Under the pieces are notes generated by a model. It was not told the origin of the DNA. It saw only the letters and a program-made list of their open reading frames with translations, and did not search any database. From NCBI RefSeq assembly GCF_000716545.1, contig NZ_JNWZ01000011.1:1-64000 (forward strand): a DNA stretch of 64,000 nt, written 5' to 3'. Both the position numbers and the translations under genes were made by a program. Shown here one piece after another: positions 8,062 through 14,444 of this stretch. The DNA comes from Kitasatospora phosalacinea. GTDB taxonomy: Bacteria > Actinomycetota > Actinomycetes > Streptomycetales > Streptomycetaceae. The stretch's first letter is position 1; each line of letters opens with the position of its first letter.

Positions 8062-8877
8062 CTATACCCGACACGCCAGGAATCCGCCGAGGCATGTGAT
8101 CTTGAAAGACCCCTCGATGGCGATCGTGGCGGCAGCGAACTCGGCTGCTCGGCTGACGGTGTCGTGGAATGGGACACCGCATTGGTCGGCCCACGCCTCG
8201 TAGGAGGCAAGGTGGGCGACGATCGGCGCGGGATCGGTGAGCTCGATGGTGCCGGGCAGTTTCCGGATCCGGATGTCCTTGAACGCCGTTGCGAGGTAGC
8301 CGGGAGCCTTCTCCAGGGAGAAGCGGGAGCTTAGGGAGACGCGGGCCGGCCCCTCGGGAATCCCGAGGACGTCGCCTGCGGCCCGGGCCCAGAGCTGGTC
8401 CAACTCTTGCTTGTCGGTGTCGCTGTTGGTTGACGCGATGAGGACGCCACCGGGCCGGAGGATTCGGGCCAGTTCCTTGATCGTGGCCGCGATGTCGCCG
8501 ACGTGGTACAGCATGTGCAGGGCCAGCACGGCGTCGACGCTATTGTCGGCGAAGGGCAGGGCCTGGGCGTCGGCCACCAGGACCGGCTTTTCGATGTCGG
8601 CGAGGATGCCGGCTGAGAGGTCCATCCCGACGACCTGAAGGTCCGGACGGTCCTTGCGCAGGCGGCTGACGAACTTGCCGTTGCCGCAGCCGACGTCGAG
8701 GACGGTCCCGCTGGTGTCGGCCAGCTCTTCGACGACAATCCCGGGCAGGTCGTACTGCGGCTGCTGCCACCGATAGATGGACTGGCGGGCGGCCAGGTGG
8801 CGCCCGTCGGCGTAGGCGCTGTTCGCGAGGATCGCCTTGTCGGCGACTGCGGCGTCCTGCTGTGCGGTGTTGCTCAT
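8062..8877 (-). CDS. Class I SAM-dependent methyltransferase
   Basis: This 271-residue soluble protein has a UbiE/Methyltransf_11-type fold. The SAM-binding motif VLDVGCGNGKF is at about residues 59-69, followed by an acidic VVGMDLS strand and ALPFADNSVDAVLALHMLYH. The RILRPGGVL motif comes after. The acceptor is unknown. The ATG at 8877 shares one base with the stop of the upstream XRE/TPR regulator (TGATG), so the two are translationally coupled and probably act together. A longer reading to 9267 only overlaps the regulator and is rejected. G+C looks lower than in the flanking core genes. Confidence 0.85.
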   Translation of the reverse strand: MSNTAQQDAAVADKAILANSAYADGRHLAARQSIYRWQQPQYDLPGIVVEELADTSGTVLDVGCGNGKFVSRLRKDRPDLQVVGMDLSAGILADIEKPVLVADAQALPFADNSVDAVLALHMLYHVGDIAATIKELARILRPGGVLIASTNSDTDKQELDQLWARAAGDVLGIPEGPARVSLSSRFSLEKAPGYLATAFKDIRIRKLPGTIELTDPAPIVAHLASYEAWADQCGVPFHDTVSRAAEFAAATIAIEGSFKITCLGGFLACRV

Positions 8878-10190
8878 CACTGGGGCAGCTCCGGAGGGTT
8901 CGTGAGTGCGGGTCGAGAGCAGGCTTCTCTGAGATTCTCGCGGAGGCTCAGGACGATCGGGGAGCCTGCGTAGGCGGGCTCGGCGAGACGAATACTCAGC
9001 GCCCGAAGGCGGGTGCAGATGCTCGCTGTTCGCCGGTCCGGTGCGGCGTCCAGCACCACCGAGAGCTTCTCCTGCGCGCCGTCGAGGTCGCCGTGGGCGA
9101 GGTGGGCGTTGGCGAGGTCGAGGCGGGCGGCCAGCAGGTCGCCGGAGGACTGTTCCTGCTGCGGTGCGGACTCGTACAGGGCGATGGCCCTGGAGGACGC
9201 CTCGATAGCACGGTTCACGTGACGCTGGCTGCCCAGGGCAAGGAGGGCAGTGCCGGCGTAGGTCCACTGCTTGGCCTCAGGAAACGTGAATACGCCGGGA
9301 AGATCCACGGCGGCTACGGCGCTCCGCGCCGCCTCGGCCGCCTCCACGGCCCGTAGCGCGCTCGCGCTGTCGCCGAGCGCGGCAGTGGCCCGCGCTTCGA
9401 GACTGAGCAGGCGGGCTGCGATCGTCCCGCTGCCCGCGTACGGCAGTCCAGCTCTGGCCAACTCGGCGGCCTGGCGGTGGTCCTGCTGCCAGTAGGCGAT
9501 CAGGGACTGGACGGATCGGGTCCAGGCCCGGAGACCGTTGTGGCCGGCTGACTCCGCGCAGCGCCAGGCCGTTCGCGAATGCGTAGCCGCAGCTGTGTAC
9601 TGGCCGAGGTCGAGAGCGACGTGGGTGGCCAGGCCGCAGAGGCGCCCGGCCTGCAGGTATAGATGGCCTGTCTGGTAAGGATGTTGGCGGCCACGGAGTA
9701 AGTCGAACACTCCTCGCCGGAGGGTTCCGATGTCGTGGAAGAGCTCGGACACCGGCTTGCTCACGTAGTCCGCTGCCAGCCTCGCGATGTCCGCGTCGAT
9801 CTGTTCCAGCAGCGTGTCGTCCACGTTGGACGCGCTCGCGAAGCGAAGGAAGAGCGCGGACTCTGCCGAGTCGGTCGCCACGGCTACTACGAGATCGTTG
9901 CCGTGGTCCGTACGCCGGGCAGGCACAGGAGGCGAGGCGTCGCCGACGCTGCTGGGCGGTGGGACTGCTTCGGCGGCTGCAGAGGGCACTGCCAGCAGGT
10001 CGGCCAACTGGTCGACCGAGAGTTCCAGGGCGCGGGCGAGCTTCGGCCGCATCCACGGCTGCGGGGCTCCCCTGCCGCTCTCCCACCGCCCCACGGTCGT
10101 GCGGTCCACGTCGAGGACTTCAGCCAGGGATTCCTGGGTGTGGCCAACCGCCTCCCTGCGCTGGATCAGCCGGGACCTCCTGGATGCCAT
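8877..10190 (-). CDS. XRE-family regulator with C-terminal TPR-like region
   Basis: The 437-residue protein has an N-terminal helix-turn-helix (about residues 8-62, with HTQESLAEVLDVDRTTVGRWE), a Pro-rich linker, and a long helical part (about 95-430) with TPR-like repeats (AGLPYAGSGTIAARLLSLEARATAALGD; LARAGL; LANAHLAHGDLDGAQEKL). This layout is common in actinobacterial regulators whose TPR part senses a peptide or partner. The ATG at 10190 is used. It is the first gene of a two-gene operon with the methyltransferase. It is divergent from the broken ATPase gene, 203 bp away, so it may control both. Confidence 0.85.
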   Translation of the reverse strand: MASRRSRLIQRREAVGHTQESLAEVLDVDRTTVGRWESGRGAPQPWMRPKLARALELSVDQLADLLAVPSAAAEAVPPPSSVGDASPPVPARRTDHGNDLVVAVATDSAESALFLRFASASNVDDTLLEQIDADIARLAADYVSKPVSELFHDIGTLRRGVFDLLRGRQHPYQTGHLYLQAGRLCGLATHVALDLGQYTAAATHSRTAWRCAESAGHNGLRAWTRSVQSLIAYWQQDHRQAAELARAGLPYAGSGTIAARLLSLEARATAALGDSASALRAVEAAEAARSAVAAVDLPGVFTFPEAKQWTYAGTALLALGSQRHVNRAIEASSRAIALYESAPQQEQSSGDLLAARLDLANAHLAHGDLDGAQEKLSVVLDAAPDRRTASICTRLRALSIRLAEPAYAGSPIVLSLRENLREACSRPALTNPPELPQ

Positions 10191-10393
10191 TCCGCGTCCT
10201 CCAGAGGTACGTCAGTTCGTCTGCAGTCGTAACAGGCCAGGTCATGCCCGGGTTTGCAGCACGGATGCCTCGTTGCCGCCTCAATTCTGCTCTGGTTCAC
10301 CCGCGTTGGAGGCGGTTCTGTAGATACCTGCCGGGTGAATCCCGGCGCGAATCGGCCCGCTGCCGACCTCGTCCCGGTGAAAGGTCCGCGCTC

Positions 10394-10895
10394 ATGTCCG
10401 TCGCCACTCGCCAAGCCATCACCCCCGCCCCGTTCGGATTTCGCGTGCTGCCCAGTGCCGAGGCCGTGCCGGATGCCCGGCGGCGGGTGATACAGGTCGT
10501 GCGCGGTTGGGGCCTGCCGCTCGCGGAGGACGCTCTCCGCGATGTCGAGTTGCTGTCCAGCGAGCTGATCACCAACGCCGTGTCCCACACCGACGCCCCG
10601 TGCGTCGTCTGCGTGTCCTGGGACGGTGACCGGCTGCGCGTCGAGGTGACGGACGTCGGCCACGAACTGCCGGCTGCCGGCTGCCGGCGGGATCGATCTC
10701 TACGCCACTGACGGGCGAGGGTTGTTCCTGGTGGCAGCGCTCGCGACGAACTGGGGCGCCGAGCCGGACCCCGCCGGCAAGCGGATCTGGTTCGAGGTCG
10801 GCACCACCTCTGCCGTCTCGGGCGACGAGCGACTCACCGCTCTGGTGAGGGCCGCGGCCCCGAAGGCACGGGATGCCGTGCCGACCAGTGCCTGA
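10394..10895 (+). pseudogene. Histidine-kinase-like ATPase (anti-sigma type), frameshifted
   Basis: The first frame gives an RsbW/SpoIIAB-like HATPase start with ELITNAVSHT (N box) at about residues 57-66, then VEVTDVG. After ELPAAG the frame is lost. The next frame reads GIDLYATDGRGLFLVAALATNWG and a normal C-terminus ending at 10895. The break coincides with three tandem copies of CTGCCGG at 10667-10687; two copies would restore a 164-residue protein. As it stands, translation ends at 10711, before the G2 box. Slippage, a recent mutation or a sequencing error are all possible. ATPases of this kind often accompany XRE regulators in streptomycetes. Confidence 0.75.
10667..10687. repeat. Heptanucleotide CTGCCGG, three tandem copies
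   Basis: Exact copies lie at 10667-10673, 10674-10680 and 10681-10687 inside the ATPase reading frame. Because seven is not a multiple of three, gain or loss of one unit switches the frame. Confidence 0.95.
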
Positions 10896-11073
10896 CAAGA
10901 CTTCCTCCCGCCCGACGCGGGCTCGGGGGATACAGGTGGCCGCGCTGGCCAACAGCCGCGCGGCGTAAGCACCTGACGTTCCTTGCCGGCGACTTGCCGT
11001 GGCAACGGATCCACCGCTGTACCCACGACGGGGTCGGGCGGTCGGCCCACCCCATGAAACCGAAGGAGTGCTT

Positions 11074-11214
11074 CATGCCCGAGAACCTGACGACCGGCAC
11101 CGAGTTGGAGGGCGACGGCCTGTTGGTCGCCCGCGCGAAGGTCGCCGCGGCCCGCTCGCGCGGCGAGGTGCCGTCCGACGGCGGCTCCACCGGCCGCTCC
11201 GACGGCAACGACTG
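11074..11214 (+). CDS. 46-residue peptide, candidate modified-peptide precursor
   Basis: The ATG at 11074 follows a strong AAGGAG site at ideal spacing. The peptide has a hydrophilic N-terminal half (MPENLTTGTELEGDGLLVAR), a short Ala/Arg segment, and a Ser/Gly/Asp-rich end (SDGGSTGRSDGND). It has no cysteine, signal sequence or membrane segment. It is followed after 14 bp by a JmjC-type oxygenase, then an aldo/keto reductase and a kinase-like gene. A leader-plus-core peptide made for modification is a reasonable inference but is unproven. It does not match lanthipeptide, lasso or thiopeptide precursors that I know. Confidence 0.6.
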
Positions 11215-11228
11215 ACGGCTGCATCACG

Positions 11229-12416
11229 ATGACCGCCGAGCAGTTCTCGGTGGTTGAGCGTCTGGGCGGGGATGGTTTCCTTGCCCGGACGCTCGGCCGC
11301 AGCTTCAAGGTCGTACGCGGTGAGGCCGCGACACTCGCAGGCATCCTGGGCTGGGACGACCTCAACGCCATCCTGGCCCGCCACCGGCTCGAACCTCCGC
11401 GCTTGCGCCTCGCCGTCAACGGGGAGCAGGTGCCCGCGCACCTCTACTCCCACCCGGTCACCACCAGGCGGAGCACCGTCTGGCAGCAGCTCCAGCCCTC
11501 CGAGCTGCACAAGCAGCTCTCCGAGGGGGCCACGCTCGTCCTGGATGCCGTGGACGATCTCCATCCTGGAGTCGGAGCGCTGGCCGCCCAGTTGGAGCGG
11601 TGGCTGCGAACGGGAGTGCAGGTGAACCTGTACGCCTCGTGGACCAGCACCGAGGGCTTCGGCGTCCACTGGGACGATCACGACGTGGTGGTCGTCCAGC
11701 TCGACGGCGCGAAGCGCTGGCGGATCTACGGACCGACCCGCGTGCTCCCCATGCACCGCGACGTAGAGAGGCCCGAGCCGCCGCCGGACGAACCCGTCGC
11801 CGACCTGGTGCTCAACGCTGGTGACGTGCTCTACCTGCCCCGGGGCTGGTGGCACGCCGTCGCCGCGTCCGAAGGCCGGCACTCGTTGCACGTCACGTGC
11901 GGGCTGCAGAGCACAACGGGTGCTGACCTGTTCACCTGGCTGTCGGAGGTTCTGCGCGTCCATGAGAGCGTCCGGGCGGACGTTCCGCGCTTCGGGACGG
12001 CCGAGGAGCAGCGCGTCTTCCTCGACACGATCGGCAAGCTCATCGCGGCCGAGTTGGAGAGCGCCGACCTGATCGATCGCTTCTCCGCCGCCCGCGACGC
12101 CACCGAGCGTGCCAGGCTGGTCCCGTCATTGCCGTACGTCACGGCGGTGCCGCCGGACCCGGAGTTGCGGGTGCGTCTCGTCACCACACGGGCCGCACTC
12201 ACGGCTGACCGGGAGAAAACCGTGCGGCTGACCACGGGCGGCGAGGAGTGGACATTCGCGGTCAAGGCTCGGCCGATGCTCACCCTCCTCGCCGACGGGG
12301 AACGTCACCGGCTGGCCGAGCTCGCGCAGGCCGCCGGCATCACGCTCGCACAGGCGGCCCGCGTCGTGACGGAACTGGTCGACGGCCAAGTCGCCGCGGT
12401 CGGGGGAGAACGATGA
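11229..12416 (+). CDS. JmjC/cupin-type 2-oxoglutarate oxygenase, ribosomal-oxygenase-like
   Basis: The 395-residue protein carries a JmjC-like cupin core. GVHWDDHDVVVVQLDGAKRW at about residues 146-165 supplies the HxD iron ligands (H147, D149). AGDVLYLPRGWWHA at about 197-210 gives the distal histidine (H209). The arrangement matches the YcfD/NO66 ribosomal oxygenases, which hydroxylate Arg or His side chains. A C-terminal winged-helix-like part (about 330-395, LAELAQAAGITLAQAARVV) also fits that family. Here the likely substrate is the 46-residue peptide encoded 14 bp upstream, by context only. The start is ATG at 11229, and the stop overlaps the reductase start in ATGA. Confidence 0.8.
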   Translation: MTAEQFSVVERLGGDGFLARTLGRSFKVVRGEAATLAGILGWDDLNAILARHRLEPPRLRLAVNGEQVPAHLYSHPVTTRRSTVWQQLQPSELHKQLSEGATLVLDAVDDLHPGVGALAAQLERWLRTGVQVNLYASWTSTEGFGVHWDDHDVVVVQLDGAKRWRIYGPTRVLPMHRDVERPEPPPDEPVADLVLNAGDVLYLPRGWWHAVAASEGRHSLHVTCGLQSTTGADLFTWLSEVLRVHESVRADVPRFGTAEEQRVFLDTIGKLIAAELESADLIDRFSAARDATERARLVPSLPYVTAVPPDPELRVRLVTTRAALTADREKTVRLTTGGEEWTFAVKARPMLTLLADGERHRLAELAQAAGITLAQAARVVTELVDGQVAAVGGER

Positions 12417-13308
12417 GCGCGCAGCTGGGTTTGGGCACCTACCGCTGCCTCGATGTGGGCGAGGCCGCCCTAATGACCGCCTCGCGTGGTGCCGACTGGG
12501 TGGACACCGCGCCCAACTACGGGAACGGCCGGGCGGAGGCGTTGCTGGCACCGGTCCTTGCCGCCTACCCCGGCCTGCGGGTTTCCACGAAGGTGGGCTT
12601 CCTCTCGGCGAGTGCCAAGCGGATCGGCGTGCGCGCGGGTGTGCTATCCGCCGAGGATGCCGAGCACGAGCACTGCCTCGCACCCGCCTACGTGGTTTGG
12701 CAGGTGGCCCGCAGCCGGCGCACGCTCGGCAGAGTCCCGGACCTGGTGTTCCTGCACAACCCCGAACACGGCTGCCGGGAAGGCGAGATCGCCGACCGGC
12801 TGTACGCGGCGTTCCTCGCCCTGGAGGAGGCGTGCAGCCGACAAGCGATCGGCGCCTACGGGGTGGCGACCTGGTCCGGCTTCAGCAGCGGACTCTTCGA
12901 CGTCTCCAGCCTCCTCGAACTCGCGGCCATGGCCGGTGGTCCGAACCACCGCCTCCGGGCCATCCAGCTCCCCGTCTCCCTCGTCCAGCTCGTGCCCGTC
13001 GCCCAAGCCCTCGACGGAGAGGGCCCGTTGGTCGATGCCCGGAGGGCGGGACTGGACGTGTTCGCCTCCGCGCCGCTCCACGGCGGAGGGGTCCCCGGTC
13101 TGATGACGCACGAGTTGACCGAGCTGATCAGCCCCGGCAGCACACGGCGGAGGCCGCCCTCTCCGTCGTCGCCTCAGCCGTGGGGGTGAAGCGCGTACTC
13201 CTGTCGACCGGGAACCCGGAACACTGGAGGAAGGCCACTGCCGTGGTCGGCCGGCCGCCGTTGTCTCCGGACCTGCTGCGAAGGGTCGTTGATGTACTCG
13301 GAACCTGA
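12413..13308 (+). pseudogene. Aldo/keto reductase, frameshifted near the C-terminus
   Basis: The protein starts at ATG 12413 in a 4-bp overlap with the oxygenase gene. Elements of the aldo/keto reductase tetrad are present early: VDTAPNYG (Asp, Tyr), STKVG (Lys) and VFLHNPE (His). The original frame continues to ELISPGS at about 13140, then diverges and would stop at 13189. The +2 frame reads TAEAALSVVASAVGVKRVLLSTGNPEHW and ends at 13308, as expected for the family. A doubled AC in GCACACGG at 13141-13147 explains the shift; removing 2 bp gives an intact 297-residue protein. The affected part includes the NADPH-binding end, so activity is doubtful. Confidence 0.8.
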
Positions 13309-14149
13309 GCCGGACGTCGCCGAGCGGATGCGCGCGATGCACGCCGTGGCAGCAGGAACGCTCCACGCGCAGCCGGCCGGTTCACGCGAGGTCTGGGGCT
13401 GGCGCGGGCGTACGCTCAGCCGCCCGGTCGTGACAGCGGACGGAGAGGGCTGGCTCCGCCTGGTGTCCGCTCCGGCCGGTAAAGCCGGCGGCAAGCTCTG
13501 GGAGGGACCGCAGGAGGCGGAGCGCCTCATGCCGCCTGCGGTTCCTCGGCCTCGACTACGTGCACGACGCACCTGGACCGGGGCCGCACACGGCTACCTG
13601 GCAGAGCTGTACGACAGAGTCACGTCCTCCACCATCACCACCCACGGGCCGGTGCTACGGACAGCACCGGACCTGGACGAAACCTGGTGGGAGAGGCTCA
13701 GTGTCGCGCTCGATGCCATGGCCACCGTACCGAGTGACCGGGTGGCCGTCCGCCAGGAGTATCTGGACCGGGCCATGCCGGAGTTCCTGGGCATCCCTGT
13801 CGACACCACCGTTCCCGCCTGGGCCACGGCCCACGGCGACCTGCACTGGGCCAACCTCACCAGCCCGACGCTCACCGTGCTCGACTGGGAGGGCTGGGGC
13901 ATCGCACCCGCGGGCTACGACGCAGCGCTCCTGCACACGTACAGCCTCCTCGTCCCCGAAACAGCCGCCCAGGTGCGCCGACGGCTGGACCATCTCCTCG
14001 ACACTCCGGCCGGACGATTCGCCGAACTCGTCGTCATCACCGAACTGCTGCAGACCACCGCACGGGGCGACAACCTCGACCTGGAAGACGCTCTACGGGA
14101 TCGCCTCTCAAAGATCGCCGGGGCACGCCCGGCACCCGAACCACGTTGA
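13292..14149 (+). CDS. Phosphotransferase of the aminoglycoside-phosphotransferase (APH) fold
   Basis: The 285-residue protein has the kinase catalytic motif HGDLHWANL at about residues 181-189 and the metal-binding LDWEGWG at about 197-203, both typical of the APH/choline-kinase superfamily. The N-terminal lobe is short, with WLRLVSAPAGKAGGKLW around residue 53. It starts at ATG 13292, inside the end of the reductase gene, so it is probably co-translated as the last gene of the peptide/oxygenase/reductase operon. It could phosphorylate the modified product or give self-protection, but the substrate is unknown. The gene stops where an integrase remnant begins. Confidence 0.75.
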   Translation: MYSEPEPDVAERMRAMHAVAAGTLHAQPAGSREVWGWRGRTLSRPVVTADGEGWLRLVSAPAGKAGGKLWEGPQEAERLMPPAVPRPRLRARRTWTGAAHGYLAELYDRVTSSTITTHGPVLRTAPDLDETWWERLSVALDAMATVPSDRVAVRQEYLDRAMPEFLGIPVDTTVPAWATAHGDLHWANLTSPTLTVLDWEGWGIAPAGYDAALLHTYSLLVPETAAQVRRRLDHLLDTPAGRFAELVVITELLQTTARGDNLDLEDALRDRLSKIAGARPAPEPR

Positions 14150-14340: not shown

Positions 14341-14370
14341 CTGTCGCACGTTTTGCGGCCCTGCTCGTTG

Positions 14371-14444
14371 AGCCCCCTGTCGGGTTCGAACCGACGACCC
14401 CCGCTTTACAAGAGCGGTGCTCTGGCCAACTGAGCTAAGGAGGC
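14371..14444 (-). tRNA. tRNA-Thr (anticodon UGU)
   Basis: The reverse complement is a 74-nt cloverleaf. The acceptor stem pairs GCCTCCT with AGGGGGC (one G-U). The D-loop contains AGCTCAGTTGG, the anticodon loop is CTTGTAA (TGT anticodon, reading ACA), and the T-loop is GGTTCGAACCC. CCA is not encoded. An integrase fragment beside its 3' end suggests it served as an attachment site. No second copy of its 3' end was seen in the window. Confidence 0.95.

Follow-up and report, generated by a model that had tools for sequence, protein, structure and literature searches.

Introduction

BipG, a JmjC enzyme, is described in PMC12707348 as the gamma-ornithine hydroxylase in the biosynthesis of biphenomycin, a ribosomally synthesized and post-translationally modified peptide (RiPP). 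Passages of PMC12710340 report that fish and algae have folds like the RiPP recognition element (RRE) in fusion with JmjC (PF08007), and that the closest bacterial homologues (~30% identity) occur in RiPP-like contexts. Since JmjC hydroxylases of RiPPs and RRE-JmjC fusions are in print, the presence of JmjC proteins in RiPPs is not new as such. In PMC7794033, sprPT (PF01636) is placed beside the HopA1-domain protein sprH3 in a RiPP cluster. Here we describe a locus of Kitasatospora phosalacinea in which the gene of a 46-residue peptide is followed by genes for a JmjC oxygenase, an aldo-keto reductase and an APH-fold kinase. It lies in a stretch of 64,000 nucleotides, hereafter the window (contig NZ_JNWZ01000011.1, positions 1 to 64,000 of the forward strand), from the draft assembly GCF_000716545.1, which consists of 226 contigs.

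The locus resembles the biphenomycin systems of BipG and PbsQ in that a JmjC 2-oxoglutarate (2OG) enzyme is encoded beside a short precursor (PMC12707348 and PMC12257519). As far as those descriptions go, it is set apart from them: the biphenomycin clusters carry genes for a multinuclear non-heme iron-dependent oxidase, a B12 radical S-adenosylmethionine enzyme, an arginase and a protease, whereas the window locus has the reductase and kinase genes and a core rich in Ser, Asp and Gly. For the RRE-JmjC fusions, the passages of PMC12710340 name no bacterial precursor, enzyme set or class. Class V lanthipeptide and thioviridamide-like clusters share with the window an APH-type kinase gene (PF01636; PMC7794033). 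The 30 precursors aligned from the window's own group (type I) contain no Cys, unlike class V lanthipeptides and thioamitides, which have Cys in the core. The ribosomal oxygenases (ROX) NO66, MINA53 and YcfD act on ribosomal proteins, whereas the JmjC gene of the window is locked to a peptide gene. Neither the peptides, nor the gene set of reductase and kinase, nor the ADGG repeats described below were found in searches of the main texts of open-licence PMC papers. The initial annotation, made from the letters of the DNA and a list of its open reading frames, likewise knew of no described class with this gene set. The system is likely an undescribed RiPP class.

Results

The peptide gene and its operon

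We propose that the locus is a candidate RiPP pathway, in which a leader is recognised by the JmjC protein, Asp or Asn residues of the core are probably oxidised, and reductase and kinase steps follow; the probability of this reading is about 0.74. Computation gave directly the conservation and linkage of the peptide, the tight gene overlaps, the catalytic motifs and a leader strand modelled in two divergent relatives. The features of the operon are listed below with the evidence for each; loci of relatives carry L numbers.

11063 to 11068, plus strand: AAGGAG, ribosome-binding sequence of the peptide gene (sequence)
11075 to 11215, plus strand: candidate precursor peptide, 46 residues (peptide family, linkage, selection)
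11117 to 11164, plus strand: candidate leader recognition segment, residues 15-30, GLLVARAKVAAARSRG (conservation; first part of the segment modelled as a beta strand by AlphaFold in relatives L031 and L053)
11174 to 11212, plus strand: candidate core SDGGSTGRSDGND, residues 34-46 (type I alignment, 30 rows)
11229 to 12416, plus strand: JmjC (ROX-type) 2OG/Fe(II) oxygenase, 395 residues (Pfam JmjC_2, E 3.8e-30; motifs; fold of relative L031)
12120 to 12389, plus strand: C-terminal winged helix of the JmjC protein, candidate leader-binding domain (weak ROXA-like_wH and HTH_15 matches; modelled secondary structure)
12413 to 13308, plus strand: aldo-keto reductase gene, disrupted, with an open reading frame (ORF) at 12413-13189 (Pfam Aldo_ket_red, 2.1e-9; frames)
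13292 to 14149, plus strand: APH-fold kinase in a single frame (Pfam APH, 0.0044, below the gathering score; motifs HGDLHWAN and DWE)

The peptide, MPENLTTGTELEGDGLLVARAKVAAARSRGEVPSDGGSTGRSDGND, is encoded by a 46-codon ORF behind AAGGAG, and the gap to the JmjC ORF is 13 bp. An ATGA joins the JmjC and reductase ORFs, which overlap by 4 bp. The strong ribosome site, the oxygenase within 14 bp of the peptide and the ATGA overlap had all been read from the sequence in the initial annotation, and they held. The window contains the arrangement that marks a RiPP locus, here a short candidate precursor encoded beside genes of candidate modifying enzymes. The closest relatives of the window proteins in protein searches came from Kitasatospora.

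A protein search with the peptide gave a family of 44 clusters, the window's own included, and a genome scan with the peptide alignment gave 32 named loci carrying it in Kitasatospora, Streptomyces, Streptacidiphilus, Nocardiopsis and relatives. JmjC, reductase and kinase were all matched in 30 of the 32. In the other two, L045 and L056, a JmjC start was read by eye directly after the peptide and is then cut short, the contig of L056 ending shortly after that start. In L045 (10151-17958) foreign DNA, transposase-like by eye, interrupts the JmjC gene just after its start and leaves the peptide gene intact; large genes downstream may be a defence cassette.

Among the Streptomycetaceae, the peptide was present in 74/394 genomes. 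For 84 of the 86 peptide matches, a JmjC match followed 12-51 bp downstream on the same strand (distances between match ends), and the two unlinked matches were the two weakest (E 2e-4 and 4e-4). On the strength of this linkage, a chance neighbourhood of the two genes was rejected. Ten of the genomes had two or three linked pairs of peptide and JmjC each. In the reverse direction, all 39 JmjC genes at least 49% identical in one set had a peptide match (two pieces in genome G054 counted as one). Across the class, the peptide was found in 14/394 genomes, including the window's own and one weak match.

Nine residues (L16, R27, R29, S34, D35, G40, D43, N45 and D46) were invariant among the 30 diverse rows of the type I alignment, six of them in SDGGSTGRSDGND, so that conservation beside the oxygenase, to which the initial annotation had pointed as a check, extends into the C-terminal part. 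The substitution rates of a set of 39 loci divided the peptide into blocks: residues 1-13 were near neutral (nonsynonymous rate, dN, 0.585; synonymous rate, dS, 0.553), residues 14-30 were under purifying selection (dN 0.301, dS 0.542), and residues 31-46 were the most constrained (dN 0.151, dS 0.389). For the JmjC gene, dN was 0.347 and dS 0.822 (35 loci). Some relatives extend 3-4 residues past the final ND; the C-terminus itself therefore need not be the reactive part. The window peptide matched no Pfam or NCBIfam family, so membership of a known peptide family was rejected, and the same null result was obtained for the seven peptides tried from types I to III.

Catalytic residues and gene overlaps

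The catalytic residues of all three enzymes were conserved (short rows left out of each count). In the JmjC protein, the HxD...H triad (H147, D149, H209) and K162 were present in at least 97% of 40 relatives; by analogy, K162 would be the 2OG-binding residue. D31, Y36, K60 and H115 of the reductase were invariant in 32 relatives, and we take them, by their position, to be the catalytic tetrad of the aldo-keto reductases. In the kinase, H181, G182, D183, N188, D198 and E200 occurred in at least 97% of 38 rows, and they correspond to the HGDxxxxN motif and the DxE-type metal motif. This conservation is consistent with the hydroxylation, redox and phosphorylation steps read into the locus by the initial annotation, as far as sequence can speak to them. 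The kinase of the relative L032 scored 1.1e-4 with Pfam APH, just below the gathering score. Sequence relatives in the PDB were found for the JmjC protein and not for the L032 reductase (E 0.01) or the window kinase (E 1). The genes are tightly packed: in 38 loci, two of them repeats, the JmjC and reductase genes overlap by 4 bp in 33, and the reductase and kinase genes by 17 bp in 28.

Predicted leader recognition

By fold (relative L031) and by sequence, the oxygenase belongs to the NO66/MINA/YcfD superfamily of ribosomal oxygenases, and PqqD/RRE families were absent from the 25 of 35 families listed for 68 JmjC relatives. The peptide and JmjC genes share a frame in several relatives; for two of these, L031 and L053, the natural stop was read through and peptide and enzyme were modelled with AlphaFold as one chain. 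In the L031 chain, peptide residues 17-22 (LVARTK) were predicted as a beta strand (predicted local distance difference test, pLDDT, 68 for blocks 11-30, and below 50 for 30-55). In the chain of the divergent L053, residues 13-18 (VLAVED) were predicted as a strand (pLDDT 88 for block 11-20, and below 50 for 23-49). In the peptide alignment the two modelled strands roughly coincide; the alignments behind the models share most rows, so that the L053 model is not independent. The conservation blocks of the peptide may reflect a division into leader and core, with a leader strand and a disordered core predicted in the two relatives.

The C-terminal domain of both models consists of strands followed by three helices, which in the L031 chain are placed at 365-368, 374-377, 383-387 and 390-394 (strands) and at 396-405, 413-420 and 424-436 (helices). 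This predicted order agrees with the strict RRE fold order of three strands and then three helices, as given in passages of PMC12710340, with one strand above the minimum. The winged helices of ordinary ROX proteins may have this strand-helix order too.

A sister group with a related peptide (type II)

Among distant JmjC relatives, 20 loci were fetched, which with L075 made 21 examined. Reductase and kinase genes were located there by tblastn; the simple gene caller gives wrong-strand calls in these loci. Fifteen of the 21 (L137-L147, L151, L152, L154 and L075), with JmjC proteins 29-35% identical, formed a group that we call type II. Of the 15, 13 have a reductase relative adjoining the JmjC gene, 14 have a kinase relative downstream on the opposite strand, and six have an HATPase gene no more than about 2 kb upstream. 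In all 15, the 300 bp or so that precede the JmjC match contain a short ORF, typically ending in GLLVAVEELTAVHDRYDSLRSDNAGSSGDSPWPGGDGNLHDGE, and its product shares with type I the leader pattern and the invariant Ser-Asp. When types I and II were aligned, L16, R29, S34, D35 and D46 were invariant in 20/20 rows, the alignment of the tail being uncertain. A search with the type II peptide gave matches in 34/297 Streptomycetaceae genomes, two of them weak; in the 30 loci kept, a type II JmjC gene lay downstream in all (partial in L234 and L242) and the start of the reductase in 28. The best evidence that the peptide is served by all three enzymes is their persistence beside a related peptide across the divergence of types I and II.

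The remaining six fetched loci comprised four without such a peptide (L148, L149, L150 and L153) and two of the third type (L155 and L156). In L149 (7263-9481) the JmjC relative, about 41% identical, adjoins a gene that is ThiF/E1-like by eye; it is possible that this is another context of peptide modification.

Asp-Gly repeat peptides (type III)

With the JmjC protein of L171 as query, matches were found in 98/296 genomes of the class, type I and II proteins included. A repeat peptide stood upstream of JmjC in all of the 30 best loci, in 26 by an Asp-Gly filter and in four (L195, L200, L205 and L210) by eye. It lay 29-137 bp from the JmjC match in 24 of the 26, the other two loci being cut at contig ends. 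A typical type III peptide begins with MALDDDDITTS and goes on in EGPADGGSNPEGHDGGADGTA repeats; L156 has 16 tandem DGG repeats. The gene after JmjC was Suc_Fer-like (PF06999) in the three loci tested, and tblastn with these three found a match in 28/37 type III stretches (25/33 when four twice-fetched genes are counted once). No match to the type I reductase or kinase was obtained in the 37 stretches, 30 of which reach at most 1.5 kb beyond the gene. The arrangement of an ADGG or EGPADGGSNPEGHDGGADGTA peptide with JmjC, often with a Suc_Fer-like gene, is widespread in actinobacteria (L184-L213, L155, L156, L170, L171, L174, L177 and L178) and appears to be a separate family of multi-core precursors.

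In a FastTree analysis of 42 JmjC proteins, types II and III were clades (support 1.0 and 0.99), type I was a clade of low support (0.25) except for the long-branched L148b, and relatives without such peptides fell between the groups. Of the 301 Asp residues in the 26 filtered type III peptides, 224 follow an Ala, 41 a His and 8 a Ser. All three types share Asp, and only the types with reductase and kinase have an invariant Ser before it, which suggests that Asp is the target of the JmjC enzyme and Ser that of the kinase. The correlation cannot separate the kinase from the reductase.

Frame changes in the window strain

The frames of the window were checked by tblastn with the proteins of L032. 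The frame changes, which the initial annotation does not mention, affect the ATPase (10600-10896) and the reductase (13100-13308), whereas the peptide gene is unaffected and the JmjC protein and the kinase each matched in one frame, the kinase starting by this match at ATG 13292, not at TTG 13289. The reductase ORF ends at 13189, and the remaining ~50 residues are encoded in a different frame, as far as 13308; the equivalents of the tetrad precede the break. Because the ORF stops there, the reductase and kinase ORFs do not overlap in the window. The overlapping start that the initial annotation gave the kinase is a feature of most relatives rather than of the window. Among the 30 named loci with all genes, the JmjC gene lies in more than one frame in L038 and L046 and gives only a partial match in L055, and the kinase lies in more than one frame in L038, which shows multiple frame breaks, and in L041, which has two copies. 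The pathway of the window strain may be damaged, with loss of reductase function, or the draft may contain errors.

Neighbouring genes

From 8062 to 14149 the gene order is methyltransferase and NsdA-family regulator on the minus strand, then HATPase, peptide, JmjC, reductase and kinase on the plus strand. The genes upstream of the peptide are as follows.

8062 to 8877, minus strand: S-adenosylmethionine-dependent methyltransferase, 271 residues (Pfam Methyltransf_11, 2.4e-22)
8877 to 10190, minus strand: NsdA-family XRE/TPR regulator, 437 residues, divergent from the operon (NCBIfam NF053720, 1.8e-38)
10394 to 10896, plus strand: HATPase_c_2 (RsbW-like) gene, frame-disrupted relative to its relatives (Pfam HATPase_c_2, 5.9e-7)

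The regulator/methyltransferase pair that the initial annotation placed upstream was found. The ATPase gene that it placed there is present and is not intact: its frame is lost after about residue 96, leaving 105 residues as against 164 in L032 and other relatives. The methyltransferase is a variable accessory, which adjoins the regulator in Kitasatospora-type loci and is replaced elsewhere by a gene of the 5-formyltetrahydrofolate (5-FTHF) cyclo-ligase family or of the RibD_C family. In the comparison of loci, the genes beside the regulator fell into clusters c7, c9 and c25. The partner enzyme of the NsdA-like regulator thus differs by lineage (window 8062-10190; L041, L042, L054, L058 and L068), and regulator and partner are perhaps a swappable cassette. 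Just past the operon, at 14370-14444, the window has a tRNA-Thr gene. A member of gene family c11 lies downstream in L032, L037 and L039, as in the window; this position may be a fixed one in Kitasatospora. PADLOC, run on six proteins (regulator, ATPase, JmjC, reductase, kinase and methyltransferase), matched only the regulator (RmrA, over its N-terminal ~60 residues) and the methyltransferase (mad2), and anti-phage defence was rejected as an explanation.

Discussion

In the proposed pathway, the 46-residue peptide would be the precursor, with a leader at about residues 14-30 (LLVAR...AAARSR) and a C-terminal core rich in Ser, Asp and Gly. The leader would be recognised by the JmjC enzyme, probably through addition of a beta strand to the winged-helix (RRE-like) domain of that protein, which would oxidise one or more Asp or Asn residues of the core. 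The aldo-keto reductase may next act on the oxidised intermediate, and the kinase may phosphorylate a hydroxyl of the core, most simply that of the invariant Ser before Asp. Among the gene clusters that recur in the compared loci, neither a protease nor an exporter was noticed; the product may accordingly remain intracellular or depend on housekeeping enzymes for its processing. As to the initial annotation, its modified-peptide interpretation is supported, and the observation on which it was built is partly confirmed.

A wider reading takes types I to III as branches of a large, largely undescribed actinobacterial superfamily of JmjC-modified, Asp/Gly-rich peptides, which would share the oxidation of Asp, the Ser-Asp branch adding a reductase step and Ser phosphorylation, a RiPP chemistry that is not known to have been described. 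In types I and II the JmjC enzyme, reductase and kinase would then act on single-core Ser-Asp precursors, and in type III the JmjC enzyme, often with a Suc_Fer-like protein, on tandem (EGPADGGSNPEGHDGGADGTA)n precursors. We put this forward tentatively, at somewhat less than even odds.

Several points weigh against the RiPP pathway proposed for the window. The role of the peptide as substrate for each of the three enzymes, the residues modified, the order of steps and the docking site are inferences. The nearest solved relatives of the JmjC protein act on ribosomal proteins, and no PqqD/RRE profile was among the seven Pfam families listed for it. The modelled chains come from relatives rather than from the window, with peptide and enzyme joined by a linker of 4-5 residues that favours contact; the leader strand may pair with the winged-helix domain. 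A 53%-identical JmjC gene in genome G235 (contig 174) and a few fragments had no peptide match, and the JmjC relatives of L148, L149, L150 and L153, which at ~36-41% identity are closer than type II, had no such peptide in the inspected upstream stretch. Among the 30 named loci with all genes, the reductase is broken in two, L031 and L033. There, as in the window, the reductase may be dispensable or the drafts faulty.

That no recurring exporter or protease was noticed would also suit a peptide that stays unmodified and serves the JmjC protein as a small partner or regulator (a chaperone, inhibitor, degradation tag or translational coupler), while the enzymes act on a small molecule. It is the C-terminus of the peptide that is most conserved; many RiPPs, by contrast, have a core more variable than their leader. 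Small molecules are also common substrates of kinase and reductase folds. We nevertheless regard this explanation as unlikely: an Asp-rich peptide accompanies each of three divergent JmjC groups, in one of them with tandem DGG repeats typical of multi-core substrates, and in the models only the N-terminal part of the peptide is predicted to be ordered, leaving the Asp-rich tail free. Somewhat less probable again is that the peptide gives rise to a cofactor or small signal that is made on the ribosome and remains in the cell, like pyrroloquinoline quinone (PQQ) or mycofactocin, instead of a secreted product. The nearly invariant C-terminus, a redox enzyme in the operon and the lack of a noticed exporter fit such a role, and the patchy distribution of the peptide does not. 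Moreover, PQQ and mycofactocin use a core Tyr, which the type I core lacks, and the NsdA family, to which the window regulator belongs, is known from antibiotic control.

The kinship of the oxygenase raises the question of an ordinary ribosomal oxygenase, hydroxylating an Arg of uL16 or a ribosomal His, with the small gene as a chance neighbour; the initial annotation had counted such a grouping, coupled with disregard of the peptide, against its own reading. Fold and sequence are indeed nearest to NO66, MINA53 and YcfD, and automatic names such as 'ribosomal protein L16 Arg81 hydroxylase' occur among the matches. The superfamily membership therefore stands, yet the gene is locked to the peptide. 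Its distribution is that of an accessory gene (the peptide in 74/394 Streptomycetaceae genomes), each copy has its own peptide in the ten genomes with two or three, and linkage in 84/86 matches is unlike that of a chance neighbour. We consider an ordinary ribosomal oxygenase very improbable here. The lock to the peptide gene, together with two divergent groups that have Asp-rich peptides of their own, speaks for a peptide, and not a ribosomal protein, as the dedicated substrate.

If the proposed RiPP pathway is correct, it would be a new class of ribosomal peptides, defined by a ROX-type JmjC oxygenase, an aldo-keto reductase and an APH kinase, and would give a biological substrate to bacterial JmjC proteins that by default are named 'cupin' or 'L16 Arg81 hydroxylase'. 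With short precursors, one-frame operons in many named Kitasatospora and Streptomyces, and a prediction at the level of residues (Asp for the JmjC enzyme, Ser for the kinase), it is directly testable. The branch with repeat peptides, which is widespread, may prove more important than the locus of the window.

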